Positions 26,569 to 34,188 of a stretch of 34,188 nucleotides of DNA are shown here, in pieces. The position numbers and the translations under genes are program-made. This DNA is from Clostridiaceae bacterium. Lineage in GTDB: Bacteria; Bacillota; Clostridia; DSM-8532. The notes below the pieces were generated by a model. It made no database searches, was not told the origin of the DNA, and saw only the letters and a program-made list of their open reading frames with translations. Numbering within the stretch: position 1 is the stretch's first letter; the number at the start of each line of letters is the position of its first letter. Location: NCBI GenBank assembly GCA_012523685.1, contig JAAYTR010000073.1, positions 1 through 34,188 of the forward strand, read 5' to 3'.

Positions 26569-28917
26569 ATGGAAAACATAACATCTCTCAGGAGCGAAAA
26601 GAGTTTATTAAAATATATTATCAGTCGTCTTTCTGACATTAAACTTTATCATGTTATTGGTTTTCTGATTTGCTTTGTTTTTTCAAGAGCAAATCTTTTT
26701 GGTGTTATAAGGCCTTTTGCTTCAGCATTTTATGTTGTAGCAGGGTTTAGTGGAGTATCCAAAGCTGTCGCCATTGTATCAATCACCCTTGGCAATGCTA
26801 TTTTTTCTAATTTCTTTGAAACAATAAGACAGCTTCTGGCTTTTATATTATTTGAGGTTCTTTTACATGTAGTCCTGACTAATAGTGCAAGAAATAATTC
26901 TGTCTTTGCCCGGTCGGTACTTATGTCATTTATTATTGGAATTACCGGACTTGTAAGAGGTGCGGTCCAGGGATTTCATCTTTACGATCTTGTTGTATCA
27001 CTATTAAGCGGTGTTCTGGTTTTTGTATTCTCTTTGATTATGGCTCCCGGAGCCCAGAATTTCAGGGAAACAAATAGCCGTGGTATATTTGACGGTAAAA
27101 CTCTGTTTTCCAGGATGGTTTTATTGGGAGTAGTCATCATAAGCATGGAAAATGTAATGGTATGGAATTGCGAGCTAGGCTCTATTCTGGCCGGTATGGC
27201 AGTATTAATTGTTGCAAGGCGTAAGGGCAGCAGTGCCGGAGCATTAATTGGTGCTGCCCTGGGGATGGTAATGGCTGTATATAATATACCGGGGGCTCTT
27301 TCTGTACCCGGTATGTTTGCATTAGCCGGAGCAGCTGCAGGCATTCCTGTAAAGACACGAACTTTCAGTGTATCATTGTGGGCTCTGGCAATTATATTTT
27401 TTTCCGGGATTTCAATTCTGGATGGAGGTCTTATAGCAAAATATTATGAAGCACTTGTTTCAGGAATTCTATTTTTACTTATACCAAAAACAATTACAGA
27501 TTTTATTAGTGATGAATTAGCTGGAATGCAGGAGACAGCAGTAAACATCTCTGCCTGCGATTCCAGCCGGACATATGACGCTGCAGACCGGATATTTGTT
27601 TTAGGCAAAGGGCTGGCACGTGTATCCAGAAATATTGAAGAAACAATTCTGGATGATGAAGATGATAAAAGCACTGTTATTCAATGGATCATAGAAGCTG
27701 TGGCGGAAAAGGTCTGCAACCGTTGCAGCATGTGCGACCGATGCTGGAACACACATTTTTATAAGACATACAAATTAATAGAAGATACATTGTTGAATTT
27801 GAAATTGGATGAAAAAGGACAACCGGAAATCCCGGGATGGTTTAAAACCACATGTACAAAACCTGAAAAATTTATTGAAGCCATGGAAACAGCTTATTCA
27901 TTGTATAAAACCGATAAATTATGGAGACAAAGACTTATTGAAAGCCGGATTTTGCTGACCCGACAGGCAAACATAATATCGGGCAGCATTATGACTCTTG
28001 CCCGCAGCCTGGTTGATCATGATGAGAGAGATTATATAACCGAAAGCAGACTTCTTGCAGTTGCCGGGAACAGAGGTCTTCAGGTCAAGTGTTTTCGCTA
28101 CCACAATAAAAAAGAATTTAAACCATATGTGGATGTTTTGGTGGATGCAAAAAACAAAATTGATACAAAAATTCTGGATGAAATAATCCAGGAAAATGTT
28201 CAAAATAATTTCATAATGACAGGTGATTGCAGGAGAGATTTTTTAGGTCATACAGTCTTAAGATACATGAAAAAACCAAAATATAAAACAGTTACGGGAA
28301 TAGCCCGTACAGCTAAGGAGACTTCACTTATATCCGGTGATAATTTTACCTTTTTTATAACATGTAAGGGTTTTCATATAAGTGCCATAAGTGACGGCGC
28401 GGGCAGCGGTAAACAAGCTGATAAATTCAGCCGTACAGCAATTCAGATGCTGGAAAGTTTATTGGATGACGGAATTGAAATCAGTTTGGCAATAAGGCTG
28501 TTAAACCTGTATTTAAATATGCGCGGAGAAAACGAACGGCTGGCAACAATTGATTTGTGCTCCATAGATCTATCCTGCGGGGCTGCTTCGTTTTATAAAT
28601 ACGGTGCTTCTACGTCATATGTAAAAAGCCGGTATGGTACAGAAGAAATATCTGTCAGCAATAATGATTCCGGTTCTGCCAGGCCGCTTCATTATAAACC
28701 TGTCAATCTGACGGGAGGAGATTTTGTAATCATGTTATCTGACGGCATTCTTGAAGCATTTTCGGTTTCAGGCGAGTCCACCGGATTGCAAGAATATATC
28801 GAAGGGCTGGATACAATTAACGCGCAGCTTATGGCAGAAGGAATAATTGATGAAGCAAAAAAACGCTGCCGGGGAAAACATGATGATATGACAGTACTGG
28901 TTACAAAACTTTGGTAA
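26569..28917 (+). CDS. spoIIE: Stage II sporulation protein E (PP2C-type phosphatase)
   Basis: A 782-residue sporulation phosphatase that dephosphorylates SpoIIAA to release sigma-F in the forespore and interacts with FtsZ at the polar septum. Domain I has about ten membrane helices (roughly 30-315). A central region follows with a Cys-rich motif, VCNRCSMCDRCW (about 382-393), as seen in clostridial SpoIIE. The C-terminal PP2C domain (about 590-782) contains SDGAGSGKQADKFS and the metal motif MLSDGILEAF, and ends with KHDDMTVLV. ATG 26569 has GGAGG at 26556-26560. That site can pair with GGTTCCTT upstream. No Spo0A box was convincing. Confidence 0.95.
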   Translation: MENITSLRSEKSLLKYIISRLSDIKLYHVIGFLICFVFSRANLFGVIRPFASAFYVVAGFSGVSKAVAIVSITLGNAIFSNFFETIRQLLAFILFEVLLHVVLTNSARNNSVFARSVLMSFIIGITGLVRGAVQGFHLYDLVVSLLSGVLVFVFSLIMAPGAQNFRETNSRGIFDGKTLFSRMVLLGVVIISMENVMVWNCELGSILAGMAVLIVARRKGSSAGALIGAALGMVMAVYNIPGALSVPGMFALAGAAAGIPVKTRTFSVSLWALAIIFFSGISILDGGLIAKYYEALVSGILFLLIPKTITDFISDELAGMQETAVNISACDSSRTYDAADRIFVLGKGLARVSRNIEETILDDEDDKSTVIQWIIEAVAEKVCNRCSMCDRCWNTHFYKTYKLIEDTLLNLKLDEKGQPEIPGWFKTTCTKPEKFIEAMETAYSLYKTDKLWRQRLIESRILLTRQANIISGSIMTLARSLVDHDERDYITESRLLAVAGNRGLQVKCFRYHNKKEFKPYVDVLVDAKNKIDTKILDEIIQENVQNNFIMTGDCRRDFLGHTVLRYMKKPKYKTVTGIARTAKETSLISGDNFTFFITCKGFHISAISDGAGSGKQADKFSRTAIQMLESLLDDGIEISLAIRLLNLYLNMRGENERLATIDLCSIDLSCGAASFYKYGASTSYVKSRYGTEEISVSNNDSGSARPLHYKPVNLTGGDFVIMLSDGILEAFSVSGESTGLQEYIEGLDTINAQLMAEGIIDEAKKRCRGKHDDMTVLVTKLW

Positions 28918-28920
28918 AAG

Positions 28921-30315
28921 CTAATTATCACCACCGGCAAGAAACATTTCTCCAACGCGATAGACATTTCCAGCGCCCATGGTAATAACAAGATCGCCGG
29001 CAGTTGCATTCTCATGAAGAAATTTGACAATGTCGTCAAACTTGGGCAAATAGACCGAGTTACCAGTATTTAGATTTATCCGGTCGTTTAAAACACGGGA
29101 GCTGATAATACCCGTATCTTTTTCTCTGGCAGCATATATATCGGTTACTATTACAGTATCAGCCTGTGCAAAAGATCTGGAAAAATCATCAATAAGCTCA
29201 AAGGTTCTGGTATAAGTGTGGGGTTGAAATATACAAAAAAGACGATTAGTGGCTAATGCTCTTACAGCACTCAAGCTGGCCTGTATTTCAGTAGGGTGAT
29301 GGGCATAATCATCCATAACCCTGATACCATATATTATTCCTTTATCCTCAAGACGCCTGTGGGTGCCTTTAAACTTTTCCAAACCATTTATTATGGCGCT
29401 CTTACTAACACCTAAACTATGGCATGCTGCAATGGCAGCCAGTACGTTTGACACATTATGAAGTCCGGGTACAGCCAGATTAATGCTTGCCCACCGTGAT
29501 TTTTTGTGCATAATTGTTGCATTTGCATAACCCTGCTTAAATGTAACGTTTTCACAACTCCAGTCAGCATCAGCAGAATTAATACCATAAGTTATGACAG
29601 GACGTGTTAAAACTTTTAAAACAGTTTTGGTTTGAGGATCATCAATATTAAGTATAATCGTTCCCGGACTCCTTACATTGCCGAGAAAGCTTTCAAACGA
29701 TTTACGTATATCATCCACATCCTTAAAGAAATCCAGATGATCGGCATCGATATTAAGAACAATGGCCAGGGATGGCCTAAAATGCAGAAAGCTGTTTTTA
29801 TACTCACAAGCCTCGGCTATAAAATAGTCACTGCCGCCAATACGGGTATTTCCACCTATCAGATCCAGCAATCCCCCTACATGAATAGTAGGATCGAGAC
29901 CTGCTTCCAACAGGATTGATGAAATCATGGATGTAGTTGTTGTTTTTCCGTGTGTACCCGAAACAGCGATACAGTTTTGAAACTGGTCCATTATGGCACC
30001 TAAGAGTTCGGATCTTTCAATAGTTGGAATATTGCGTTTTGCTGCTTCAACAATCTCAGGGTTATCATTGGAAACAGCAGCTGTATAAACAACGAGATCC
30101 GGATTATCAATGTTAGAACCTGCATGGGAGTAGTATATGGTTGCTCCCTTACTCTCTAATCTTTTTGTTATTTCTGATTCAATCAAATCGGAGCCTGAAA
30201 TTTTAACACCTTTATGCATCAGAATTTCAGCAAGGCCACTCATGCTTATGCCGCCGATTCCTATCATATGAACTTTCATATCGTCTTTATCCCATAAATA
30301 ATTTTGATGCTCCAT
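28921..30315 (-). CDS. murC: UDP-N-acetylmuramate--L-alanine ligase
   Basis: Adds L-alanine to UDP-MurNAc, the first peptide step of peptidoglycan synthesis. The 464 residues hold the N-terminal Rossmann motif HMIGIGGISMSGLAEIL (about 16-32), the ATP loop SGTHGKTTT (119-127), the central domain with NIDADHLDFF and the C-terminal Mur domain with VMDDYAHHPTEI. CGGAGTG lies before the ATG. Its end is four bases from that of convergent spoIIE. It sits next to spoVG-glmU-prs-pth on the other strand, a setting common in Clostridia. Confidence 0.97.
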   Translation of the reverse strand: MEHQNYLWDKDDMKVHMIGIGGISMSGLAEILMHKGVKISGSDLIESEITKRLESKGATIYYSHAGSNIDNPDLVVYTAAVSNDNPEIVEAAKRNIPTIERSELLGAIMDQFQNCIAVSGTHGKTTTTSMISSILLEAGLDPTIHVGGLLDLIGGNTRIGGSDYFIAEACEYKNSFLHFRPSLAIVLNIDADHLDFFKDVDDIRKSFESFLGNVRSPGTIILNIDDPQTKTVLKVLTRPVITYGINSADADWSCENVTFKQGYANATIMHKKSRWASINLAVPGLHNVSNVLAAIAACHSLGVSKSAIINGLEKFKGTHRRLEDKGIIYGIRVMDDYAHHPTEIQASLSAVRALATNRLFCIFQPHTYTRTFELIDDFSRSFAQADTVIVTDIYAAREKDTGIISSRVLNDRINLNTGNSVYLPKFDDIVKFLHENATAGDLVITMGAGNVYRVGEMFLAGGDN

Positions 30316-30404
30316 AATACACTCCGATTCTCAATATTTCAGATAGAATTATATATCAAATACAAGCATTTATTCAAGGAAAGAAAAGATTGATAATGAT
30401 GAGG

Positions 30405-30462
30405 CTGATTTTGCCATATTATCAAATTAAGCTACTAAAAATAATTTTATGGCAAAAATCAG
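30405..30462. repeat. Inverted repeat upstream of spoVG
   Basis: CTGATTTTGCCATA (30405-30418) pairs with TATGGCAAAAATCAG (30448-30462) with a single bulge, around a 29-base AT-rich loop. It lies in the 307-bp gap between the divergent murC and spoVG genes, before the sigma-H promoter. It could be an operator or a structured transcript; nothing else stands out in 30316-30540. Confidence 0.55.
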
Positions 30463-30543
30463 TTTAACTTGTGTATTAATGCGGATTTCCAGCGATTTTA
30501 CTCAGAGAGATTATGGTAAATATTAAAAATTATTTTTTAAAAA

Positions 30544-30572
30544 GCAGGAATTTTGGAATATTTGGCGAATTT
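30544..30572 (+). promoter_or_regulatory. Sigma-H promoter of spoVG
   Basis: GCAGGAATT (30544-30552), an 11-base spacer and GGCGAATTT (30564-30572) match the sigma-H consensus (RnAGGAwww, then RnnGAATww) at every defined position. Bacillus subtilis spoVG is the classic sigma-H gene. Confidence 0.85.
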
Positions 30573-30622
30573 ATATATCAAACATAAAACTACATTGTTA
30601 TATCGGAAGGTGGGCTGCTAAA

Positions 30623-30913
30623 GTGGAGATTACAGACATTAGAATTCGTAAGGTTGATGCTGAGGGTAAAATGAAGGCAGTGGTGTCAGTTACTTTTGAC
30701 AATGAATTTGTCGTTCATGACATCAAAATAATTGAAAGCCAGGGCGGACTGTTTATTGCAATGCCCAGTCGTAAAACCCCAACTGGTGAATTCAGGGACA
30801 TTGCGCACCCAATTAATGCGGATGCAAGAAATAAGGTGCAAAATGCGATACTGGAGAAATACCAGTCAATGCTGGCGGAAGAAGAAGCCGCCGGTACAAT
30901 GCTTAAGGAATAG
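30623..30913 (+). CDS. spoVG: Septation/sporulation regulator SpoVG
   Basis: A 96-residue small nucleic-acid-binding protein that affects asymmetric septation, capsule and other genes. The family core is clear: [11 protein letters not shown] at the start, [20 protein letters not shown], and [21 protein letters not shown]. The start is GTG 30623 with GGAAGGTGGG upstream. It is the first gene after the sigma-H promoter and ends at a strong terminator, so it is largely a one-gene unit. Confidence 0.97.
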
Positions 30914-30933
30914 TTTCCTAAGGCTGATGCGCT

Positions 30934-30968
30934 TAGGCACTTCTTGATTATGAAGTGCCTATTTTGTT
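30934..30968 (+). terminator. Intrinsic terminator after spoVG
   Basis: A perfect 10-bp stem, TAGGCACTTC (30934-30943) with GAAGTGCCTA (30952-30961), followed by TTTTGTT. Confidence 0.85.
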
Positions 30969-31070
30969 GCAATAAAATATGTAAAATGTCAATTGCATTA
31001 CTATTATAAACATGAGAAAATGAATATAGGTAATAAACAGTATTATAAATATTCGGGGGGTATAAAGCTC

Positions 31071-32348
31071 TTGCAAGAACTGGTGGCATTTATTATTATA
31101 TCGGATAAAGGAACCGGTATGAATTCGTTATCGCCCAAATATATCCATAATATATGTGGACAAGCGATGTTATCATATACAATTGATGCAAGTCTTGAAG
31201 CGGGTTCAGATAAACTTGTGGTTGTGTCAGGTCAAAATCCGGATTCTATTAAGGAATCTATACCAGAAGACACTATTTTAGTACATCTTGATGAAGAATC
31301 CAAAGATGATAATCTTATAAAAAAACTGCAGGAAGTCCTGAAAAATAACGAAAAGGGAACGATACTAATTTTACCTGGTGAATACCCGACTATAAGCGGC
31401 AGCACTCTTAAGTCAGCATATGAATATCACCAGGAAAAGAATAATGATGTTACTGTTCTGACCAATTCAGGGGGAAGTCTGTCCGATATTTGTTTTTTAA
31501 ATACCGATTTATTGTTAACTGAAGTTTTAGATCTGGAAGAAGAGGATCAATTCGATAATTTTTCAATAAAGAATATAATTAAGAAGTTCTATGCCAAAGG
31601 TAAAAAAGTCAGCGGCTATAGAGCTTCTAATTCTGAGGAACTGCTTAAGGTTAATGACAGGAGTCAGTTGTCTGAGGCAGAACGTATAATACTGGACCGG
31701 ATTATTAAAAAACATATGGATAATGGTGTTACCTTCCATTTACCCGAAACCTGTATGATTCATAATAAAGTAATAATAGGAAAAGATACGATAATTCACC
31801 CCGGAACACAACTGGAGGGAAATACGGTGATTGGCGGCAATTGCCATATAGGACCGTATTCCCGGATTGAAAACAGTGTTGTTAAAGACGGGGTTCATTT
31901 TATGTATTCAGTAATGCTTGAATCACAGATAGGCAATAACACAAAAGTCGGGCCTTTTGCTTTTATCAGACCCGGCTCAAATATTGGTGAAAATATAAAG
32001 ATTGGCGATTTTGTTGAAATAAAGAATTCCAACATTGGAAATAATTCAAAAGTACCGCACCTGTCGTATATAGGAGATGCTGATATAGGGAAGCATGTCA
32101 ACATAGGATGTGGTGCTATAGTAGTTAATTATGATGGCAAAAAGAAAACCAGGACCACTGTTGGTGACAATGCGTTTGTAGGATGCAATGTTAACCTTGT
32201 ATCACCTGTCAAAATAAATGATTATGCATATATTGCGGCCGGTTCAACCATAACCGATGAAGTACCGGAATATTCATTGGCTATTGCCAGAAACCGACAA
32301 ACAATAATTGCTGACTGGGTAAGACGAAAAGGACTGGACAAAAAATAA
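31071..32348 (+). CDS. glmU: GlmU-like protein: intact glucosamine-1-phosphate acetyltransferase domain, degenerate uridylyltransferase domain
   Basis: Normal GlmU acetylates glucosamine-1-phosphate (C-terminal half) and then makes UDP-GlcNAc (N-terminal half). The C-terminal left-handed beta-helix here (about 225-425) is well kept: [10 protein letters not shown], catalytic His330 in [20 protein letters not shown] and YIAAGSTI. The N-terminal domain (1-220) is not. The signature LAAGxGTRM reads IISDKGTGM (residues 9-17, Asp12 for Gly and Gly16 for the catalytic Arg), the metal Asp of GDVP is Glu104, and the loop equivalent to PTGYGRI...VEEKDA is missing between about residues 130 and 140. Total length is 425 against about 455. 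VNDRSQL (194-200) still marks the domain end. TTG 31071 is chosen because CGGGGGGT lies upstream; the longer frame begins at TTG 30993. Uridylyltransferase loss is inferred. Confidence 0.88.
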
Positions 32349-32379
32349 TTATTATCTTAGTTGGAGGTTGTTAGTTTAT

Positions 32380-33342
32380 ATGAATCTTCATGGCAAAGAC
32401 ATTAAGATTTTCGCTGGGAATTCCAACAGACAGCTTGCAGAGGAAATTGCATTAAAGGTTGGATTGCCCTTGGGGGAAGCGATAGTATCAAAGTTTTCCG
32501 ACGGGGAGACAGCGATAAGCATTAATGAGGTTGTGAGAGGATCGGACGTATTTATTATCCAATCTACCTGTACACCTGTTAATGATAATATAGTTGAACT
32601 GCTTATTCTGGTTGATGCACTCAGGCGTGCTTCAGCAGGACGTATAACCGCTGTTATCCCATATTTCGGATATGCACGTCAGGACCGCAAGGCCAAAGCC
32701 AGAGATCCCATTTCAGCAAAACTCGTGGCAAACCTTATAACAGTCTCCGGAGCTGACAGGGTTCTCACAATGGATCTTCATGCCCCGCAGCTTCAGGGAT
32801 TCTTTGATATTCCGGTGGATCATCTTTTGGGAACACCTATTCTTGCACAGTACTTTTATAAAAAGTTTGGTGGAAAGACTGATGACGTAGTGGTTGTGTC
32901 ACCTGATGTAGGCAGTGTAGGAAGATCAAGAAAATTTGCCGAAAAGCTTGACGTACCACTGGCAATCATAGATAAGAGAAGACCTAAAGCCAATGTTTGT
33001 GAAATAATGAATATTATAGGTGACGTAAAAGGCAAACGGGCAATATTGGTGGATGACCTGATTGATACTGCCGGCACTGTTGTTAATGCCGCCAATGCTA
33101 TGGGAGATATGGGGGCAAGGGAAGTGTATGCCTGCTGTACCCATGGAGTTCTTTCAGGTCCTGCGATTGATAGAATTCGCACCTCAGCCATTAAAGAGCT
33201 GGTGACACTGAACACTATACCGCTGCCTGCCGAAAAGCGAATAAGTAAAATTACAACCCTCTCGGTTGGAGATGTTTTTGCTGAGGCTATTGAAAGAATT
33301 TACGGAGATATATCGATCTCAACACTATTTACACAACAATAG
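32380..33342 (+). CDS. prs: Ribose-phosphate pyrophosphokinase (PRPP synthetase)
   Basis: Makes PRPP from ribose 5-phosphate and ATP for nucleotide, histidine and tryptophan synthesis. The 320 residues include [11 protein letters not shown], the signature [33 protein letters not shown] and the PRPP-binding loop [12 protein letters not shown], the marks of a class I enzyme. ATG 32380 is preferred over an in-frame TTG at 32368, which directly abuts the GGAGG site (32363-32367). It lies 31 bases after glmU and 8 before pth, in the conserved glmU-prs-pth order. Confidence 0.97.
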
Positions 33343-33350
33343 AGGTTATT

Positions 33351-33911
33351 ATGTTTATTTTTGCCGGACTGGGAAATATGGGCCCCAAATATGAGAGAAC
33401 CCGACACAATGTCGGGTTCGATACTATTGATTATCTTGCAGCACTATATAGAATCAATAATTTCAAATCTAAGCATAAGTCCTTAATGGCAGAAGGAATA
33501 ATTCAGGGACAGAAGGCTCTTCTGGTAAAACCGCAAACTTACATGAACAACAGCGGAGAGGCTATCCGCCAGATCATGGACTATTATAAGGTGCCCTATG
33601 AAAATCTTGTTGTTATATATGATGATGTGGATTTGGACGTAGGGCACATAAGAATAAGAGCCAAAGGCGGTGCCGGAACTCATAACGGTATGCGCTCCAT
33701 AATAAGCCATACAAAAACAGAAAACTTTCCGCGTATACGTATCGGAATCGGCAAAGCTCCGGAGAGGATGGATTTGGCTGATTATGTATTGAGCCGTTTT
33801 TCCGATGAAGAGCGAAAACAGGTCAATATTGCTGTTGAGAATGCCGCAAAAGCAGCCGTAACAATAATTTGCGCCTCTATTGAGATAGCAATGAGCAAGT
33901 ATAACACATAA
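33351..33911 (+). CDS. pth: Peptidyl-tRNA hydrolase
   Basis: Recycles peptidyl-tRNA released from stalled ribosomes. At 186 residues the catalytic His19 is in TRHNVGF, with Asn67 in TYMNNSG, Asp92 in YDDVDL and Asn112 in GAGTHNGMRS (the usual GGHNG is GTHNG). The ATG at 33351 has GAGG a few bases upstream and follows prs by 8 bases. The stop codon lies within the left arm of the palindrome at 33908-33952, which may end the transcript. Confidence 0.96.
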   Translation: MFIFAGLGNMGPKYERTRHNVGFDTIDYLAALYRINNFKSKHKSLMAEGIIQGQKALLVKPQTYMNNSGEAIRQIMDYYKVPYENLVVIYDDVDLDVGHIRIRAKGGAGTHNGMRSIISHTKTENFPRIRIGIGKAPERMDLADYVLSRFSDEERKQVNIAVENAAKAAVTIICASIEIAMSKYNT

Positions 33912-33952
33912 GACAGGGGACGGTTCCGTGTCCTATTTTAACCCTGTCTTAT
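33908..33952. repeat. Palindrome of the GGGGACGGTTCCGTGTCC type overlapping the pth stop
   Basis: Perfect 11-bp arms ATAAGACAGGG (33908-33918) and CCCTGTCTTAT (33942-33952) enclose a smaller GGAC/GTCC palindrome. No T-run follows, but the structure is stable enough to act as a 3' end. Small palindromes with this inner sequence are dispersed in clostridial genomes (recollection, not searched). Confidence 0.65.
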
Positions 33953-33964
33953 AAGAAAATTGCC

Positions 33965-33982
33965 TTGCTGCCGCGGCGGCAA
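33965..33982. repeat. Near-perfect GC-rich palindrome TTGCTGCCGCGGCGGCAA
   Basis: An 18-base sequence self-complementary except for one opposed pair, in the gene-free end of the window. There is no T-run or neighbouring gene to explain it. The stretch 33983-34030 shows nothing recognisable. Confidence 0.5.
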
Positions 33983-34030
33983 CTTTCTTGATATACGCAA
34001 GCTCATATTAAGAATAATGCGAACTGTATT

Positions 34031-34056
34031 GTCAATCTGAACGGAGTGAAGAGTCT
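34031..34056 (+). repeat. Half-site of the GTCATTCTGAGCG-type repeat
   Basis: GTCAATCTGAACGGAGTGAA followed by GAGTCT aligns with the complement of the right arm of the repeat at 2567-2647. The matching second arm is not seen in the window. It lies directly before hairpin element copy B, as the first repeat lies before copy A. Confidence 0.5.
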
Positions 34057-34075
34057 TTTTACGTTAAACAGGTGA

Positions 34076-34181
34076 GCGGCTGTAGACCGCTGCGATTTAG
34101 CGCTCCATTTCCAACATCCAGTTTCTAGTCGCGCTCGCTATGCAATCCATGCTTCGCTTTAAATCGCAGCAGCCACGCCGC
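34076..34181 (+). repeat. Hairpin element copy B: paired arms around the same core as copy A
   Basis: The arms GCGGCTGTAGACC...GCTGCGATTTA (34076-34103) and TAAATCGCAGC...GCCGC (about 34159-34181) pair with a bulge at CTGTAGA. The core (about 34101-34158) contains AGTCGCG...GC and GCAATCCATGCTTCGC, aligning over about 60 bases with the reverse complement of the core at 2721-2780. The arm sequences differ from copy A, but pairing is kept in both. Confidence 0.75.
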
Positions 34182-34188
34182 TTAATTA

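Follow-up and report, generated by a model that had tools for sequence, protein, structure and literature searches.

We asked whether the GlmU protein encoded in the window (the whole stretch of 34,188 nucleotides of clostridial DNA analysed here) still has both of its activities, acetyltransferase and uridylyltransferase, and, if only one is left, which enzyme could carry out the other step. The gene lies in the order spoVG-glmU-prs-pth, of which spoVG-glmU-prs is the usual position of glmU in Firmicutes (conserved synteny). The features of the region, in window coordinates, are the following.

28921-30315, reverse strand: murC-like open reading frame (read from its translation), a cell-wall gene whose pathway uses UDP-GlcNAc-derived precursors.
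30623-30913, forward strand: spoVG, upstream of glmU, a neighbour conserved in Firmicutes (PF04026, E = 3e-39).
31054-31061, forward strand: G-rich stretch, read directly from the sequence, 5' of the TTG start of glmU; a putative ribosome-binding site.
31071-32348, forward strand: glmU, 425 amino acids with a TTG start; predicted acetyltransferase-only GlmU with a degenerate uridylyltransferase half.
31071-31664, forward strand: degenerate N-terminal uridylyltransferase half of glmU, residues 1-198.
31092-31121, forward strand: former glycine-rich loop, in which LAAGxGTRM has become IISDKGTGM; residues 8-17, including the preceding Ile.
31380-31382, forward strand: Glu104, where GDxP would have its metal-binding Asp.
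31464-31484, forward strand: junction NSGGSLS, residues 132-138, where the GYGRI...EEKDA...EIN segment is short by 34 residues.
31725-32345, forward strand: intact acetyltransferase half, a left-handed beta-helix, residues 219-425, with His330 at 32058-32060 and NYDG at 32127-32138.
32368-33342, forward strand: prs (ribose-phosphate pyrophosphokinase), the conserved downstream neighbour of glmU (PF13793, E = 8e-53).
33351-33911, forward strand: pth-like open reading frame (peptidyl-tRNA hydrolase), read from its translation.

No Rfam family was found in 28000-34188. The window also carries spoIIE (stage II sporulation protein E) at 26569-28917, which together with spoVG suggests a spore-forming lineage.

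The original prediction described a GlmU with the loop IISDKGTGM (Asp12 and Gly16), Glu104 in the metal-binding position, an acetyltransferase half that keeps His330 and NYDG, and a frame open throughout. Translation of 31071-32348 bore out each of these points: IISDKGTGM occupies residues 9-17, NYDG residues 353-356, and all 425 residues lie in one open frame. We then compared the GlmU motifs column by column with those of 16 intact relatives. The window protein has lost the L, A, A, G and R of the loop, LGTGHA, the Asp of GDxP, the Gly of GYGR, the Glu of E(E/H)KDA and the Asn of EINSG, all of which are invariant or near-invariant among the 16. The loss of LGTGHA, and with it of the uracil-contacting motif QxxxLGTGHA, adds to the changes recognised originally. 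A gap near residues 130-140 had also been noted, and it is there, but its size had been put too low, at ∼25-30 residues: the sugar-binding segment comprises 7 residues in the window protein versus 41 in the intact sister species, so that 34 are missing by alignment. In the N-half the Lys of 'PK' and the Asn/Asp of VNDR are retained, and the acetyltransferase half keeps its hexapeptide repeats as well as His330 and NYDG.

In a profile scan the protein scored above the TIGR01173 cut-off owing to its C-half, so that automatic annotation would label it bifunctional; it narrowly missed the cut-off of PRK14354 (435.5 versus 450). It shares with the canonical bifunctional GlmU described by these two models its operon position, two-domain layout, intact acetyltransferase site and predicted fold, but differs from it in having a destroyed uridylyltransferase site and 34 residues fewer. 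Judged from the sequence, uridylyltransferase activity has very probably been lost, and the best reading of the gene is a vertically inherited glmU that would have been reduced to a glucosamine-1-phosphate acetyltransferase. A search of the open-access literature returned no description of a clostridial GlmU that is an acetyltransferase only.

The N-half is decayed in 12 of the 14 species sampled from the genus, the other two (G004 and G009) having a complete, motif-perfect GlmU of 458 residues. As the 11 other species that share the changes were assembled separately, chance and sequencing error are excluded, and so, with an open frame, is a frameshift. The substitutions at the former catalytic sites differ from species to species, and the N-half is kept, not deleted, in all 12 degenerate members. 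In all 75 GlmU sequences fetched from outside the genus, the canonical motifs were wholly or mostly retained. Independent decay was seen in G017, of the same family, and in G036, of another family, where the 34-residue loss also occurs, and the tree of the C-domain requires at least three changes between the intact and degenerate states. Elsewhere in the class GlmU is found in shortened and C-only forms (G033, G037 and G048). The reverse split of GlmU exists too: stand-alone N-domains of ∼251-299 residues, lacking the acetyltransferase half, are encoded at G044:C84, G052:C1, G116:C5 and G141:C3 (also G055:C1 and G185:C109). The acetyltransferase domain was undetected in G016, G022, G026, G039, G045, G046, G049 and G057 as well, and in these eight genomes either acetylation must have been replaced too or GlcNAc-1-P must come by another route.

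If the N-half is inactive, can another enzyme in the same genome make UDP-GlcNAc? A separate pyrophosphorylase had been proposed at the outset. Searches for a second GlmU N-domain and for UAP1-type proteins (PF01704) gave no result, either in the window's own genome (94% complete, 322 contigs) or in the genus. A candidate was located on a different contig from glmU, at G000:C275:1014-1940, where a 309-residue nucleotidyltransferase is encoded. This protein passes the PF00483 cut-off and is a full-length relative of PDB 3pnn (E = 8e-80), a structure from Porphyromonas gingivalis deposited as 'conserved domain protein' without an assigned function; a literature search on 3pnn returned no relevant paper and none testing activity. 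The motifs AAGxGSR, KQ, GT(GH)A and DD are invariant in 21 homologues. Profile comparison related the family to intact GlmU N-domains with 98.5% probability, and the alignment matched the AAGxGxR loop, the Q, GTGHAV, DD/GD and the (A/G)E(F/Y)(F/Y)L segment. We rejected as replacements the other PF00483 proteins of the genome: one of GalU type and those of GlgC/GlgD type (types read from sequence), and a glucose-1-phosphate cytidylyltransferase-like protein whose best match was TIGR02623, just under the cut-off. Beside the 3pnn-family gene on G000:C275 lies a reverse-strand open reading frame (L140:1960-2835) that is fast-evolving and of unknown function; its relatives hold the same position in several members of the genus.

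Next, we asked whether the presence of a 3pnn-family gene follows the loss of the GlmU N-domain. Within the genus it was present in 10/10 degenerate genomes that are ≥94% complete and in 0/2 intact genomes; two further degenerate genomes lack it and are 81% and 86% complete. At the level of the class we used 391 evenly drawn genomes and counted the N-domain as lost at E > 1e-40; the scores are bimodal, with none falling between 1e-32 and 1e-52. An intact N-domain was missing in 157 of the 391. Either the 3pnn family (89 genomes) or a UAP1-like PF01704 protein (46 genomes) was present in 135 of these 157 versus 45 of the 234 intact genomes, raw counts that are inflated by kinship within families, as the genomes are related; when stratified by family (Mantel-Haenszel), the association had an odds ratio of 13 (p = 5e-10). 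The two families occurred together in no genome, compared with 16.6 expected (hypergeometric p = 3e-10). The one PF01704 protein tested was UAP1-like (E = 3e-80 to UDP-GlcNAc diphosphorylase), which means that the reaction lost from GlmU is the very one catalysed by this alternative partner. The eukaryotic-type UAP1/AGX, a different family and one not seen in this genus, stands in for the GlmU N-domain in 46/157 genomes. An intact N-domain and a 3pnn-family enzyme were both present in 41 genomes, indicating that the enzyme has another role too, probably in salvage. Neither the 3pnn family nor PF01704 was found in 22 genomes that had lost the N-domain: eight come from one small-genome family, about eight are <90% complete and about six are unexplained. 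The eight members of this small-genome family (0.8-1.2 Mb) are G037, G075, G129, G152, G197, G292, G306 and G322.

The gene neighbourhoods point to where such an enzyme may have come from. In other families, 3pnn-family genes adjoin those for a NahK-like kinase (E = 3e-92 to N-acetylhexosamine 1-kinase), GalE and sometimes NagB, neighbours that fit a salvage route from HexNAc through HexNAc-1-P to UDP-HexNAc. The bifidobacterial NahK/GalE salvage of lacto-N-biose likewise has a kinase, a uridylyl enzyme and an epimerase in one cluster. Bifidobacteria, however, use a UDP-glucose-dependent transferase in that pathway, whereas the enzyme here would be a UTP-dependent pyrophosphorylase. NahK was not found in the window's own genome nor in most of the genus, and the enzyme there would therefore draw on de novo GlcNAc-1-P, which in this genus probably comes from the GlmU C-domain. 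The members of the genus that do carry NahK (G007, G008 and G012) each have two 3pnn-family copies, one adjoining NahK and one not. Among the relatives sampled that have the 3pnn family but not NahK, 12/13 are without an intact GlmU N-domain, and only G044 has one, as a stand-alone protein; this pattern agrees with a salvage enzyme having been drawn into de novo synthesis.

What does the degenerate N-half still do? An AlphaFold2 model of the window protein (mean pLDDT 89.6 over the whole protein) still has a folded N-domain, and its best PDB matches are full-length GlmU structures, with S. aureus GlmU (9dqf) at the top. In degenerate pairs the N-half has a dN/dS of 0.14-0.24 and a dN 3-5 times as high as in the C-half, against a similar dN of both halves in intact pairs; this means that the N-half is relaxed, yet is not a neutral pseudogene. 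The predicted fold, the purifying selection and the retained 'PK' Lys and VNDR Asn/Asp could be taken to mean that the N-half still catalyses uridylyl transfer, slowly or via altered residues. We regard this as highly improbable, as the loop has lost its Arg and Gly, LGTGHA and the metal-binding Asp are missing, and so is the whole sugar-binding segment, and the variation of the substitutions by species speaks of released constraint and not of a new active site. Alternatively, the N-half may control the acetyltransferase as a regulatory domain, a role that the original prediction also allowed, or as a sensor of a ligand, in keeping with its retention under purifying selection in all 12 genus members. 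This also seems very unlikely: the residues of the pocket vary freely across species, no new conserved site was seen, and the shortened and C-only forms in the class indicate that GlmU can in principle do without this half. The selection and the predicted fold are explained equally well if the N-half is purely structural; it would then be a remnant that has no catalytic function but, still folding, is probably a scaffold for the trimeric beta-helix.

Two further explanations concern the source of UDP-GlcNAc. GlmR (YvcK) is, like the enzyme proposed here, a second UDP-GlcNAc-making enzyme beside GlmU; it is CofD-related (TIGR01826) and has been reported as an accessory uridyltransferase to intact GlmU in Listeria, Bacillus and Staphylococcus, the purified protein converting GlcNAc-1-P and UTP to UDP-GlcNAc (PMC10128056). 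Its gene is present genus-wide and in the window's own genome (partial at a contig end, TIGR01826 above cut-off), so GlmR could supply UDP-GlcNAc here while the 3pnn-family enzyme does something else. However, within the genus and family GlmR occurs equally whether GlmU is intact or degenerate and thus does not track the loss; it was undetected in at least nine genomes without an intact GlmU N-domain, all nine with the 3pnn family or UAP1, and it leaves the mutual exclusion of these two unexplained. As a general replacement GlmR is ruled out by this distribution, and as the source of UDP-GlcNAc in this genus we consider it quite unlikely. The other explanation starts from a PF00483 family clustered with galE that a 2017 study named GalY and predicted to act in place of GalT (PMC5583593). 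The GalY (Amuc_0031) family may be the same as the 3pnn family, whose genes here often adjoin galE; if so, the substrate could be galactose-1-P. On this view the enzyme would mainly be a pyrophosphorylase for galactose-1-phosphate or a general one for UDP-hexoses, and lifestyle would indirectly account for its coincidence with GlmU decay. Such a proposal predicts neither the link to GlmU N-domain loss within families nor the exclusion of UAP1-type enzymes, and NahK, as a HexNAc kinase, is more informative as a neighbour than GalE; we find the proposal unlikely. A broad UDP-sugar pyrophosphorylase would account for both the link to GlmU loss and the UAP1 exclusion.

We therefore return to the reading in which GlmU has become an acetyltransferase only and the uridylyl step has been displaced by a recruited pyrophosphorylase of salvage type. 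Sequence, phylogenetic profile and genome context all support the original idea of an acetyltransferase-only protein with a separate pyrophosphorylase elsewhere, and we hold this reading to be quite probable. The GlmU C-domain would release GlcNAc-1-P, from which, with UTP, the 3pnn-family enzyme on C275 most likely makes UDP-GlcNAc. Most likely the family first supplied the uridylyl step in the salvage of N-acetylhexosamines, acting between NahK and GalE; it would then have been recruited for de novo synthesis, and the GlmU N-domain would have decayed after this enzyme could do its job. Displacement by the 3pnn family or by a UAP1-like enzyme appears to have occurred repeatedly in Clostridia. 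More broadly, we think it likely that 3pnn-family proteins form a third, so far unrecognised, class of UDP-GlcNAc pyrophosphorylases in bacteria, which came from HexNAc salvage and repeatedly displaced the GlmU N-domain in Clostridia, with outcomes that range from a full-length but degenerate GlmU, via a C-only acetyltransferase, to the loss of the whole protein.

Such repeated displacement of the uridylyltransferase half by an uncharacterised family would be a wider finding than a single GlmU variant, and it predicts a function for 3pnn, a structure deposited without one. It also means that annotation by TIGR01173 credits the window protein with an activity that it has very probably lost. GlmU is viewed as a near-universal, bifunctional and essential enzyme and as an antibacterial target. 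If its uridylyltransferase half is replaceable, as it would be in lineages across 48 of the 86 families sampled from the class, many gut and digester bacteria would escape inhibitors aimed at that half, and metabolic models built on a bifunctional GlmU would fail for them.
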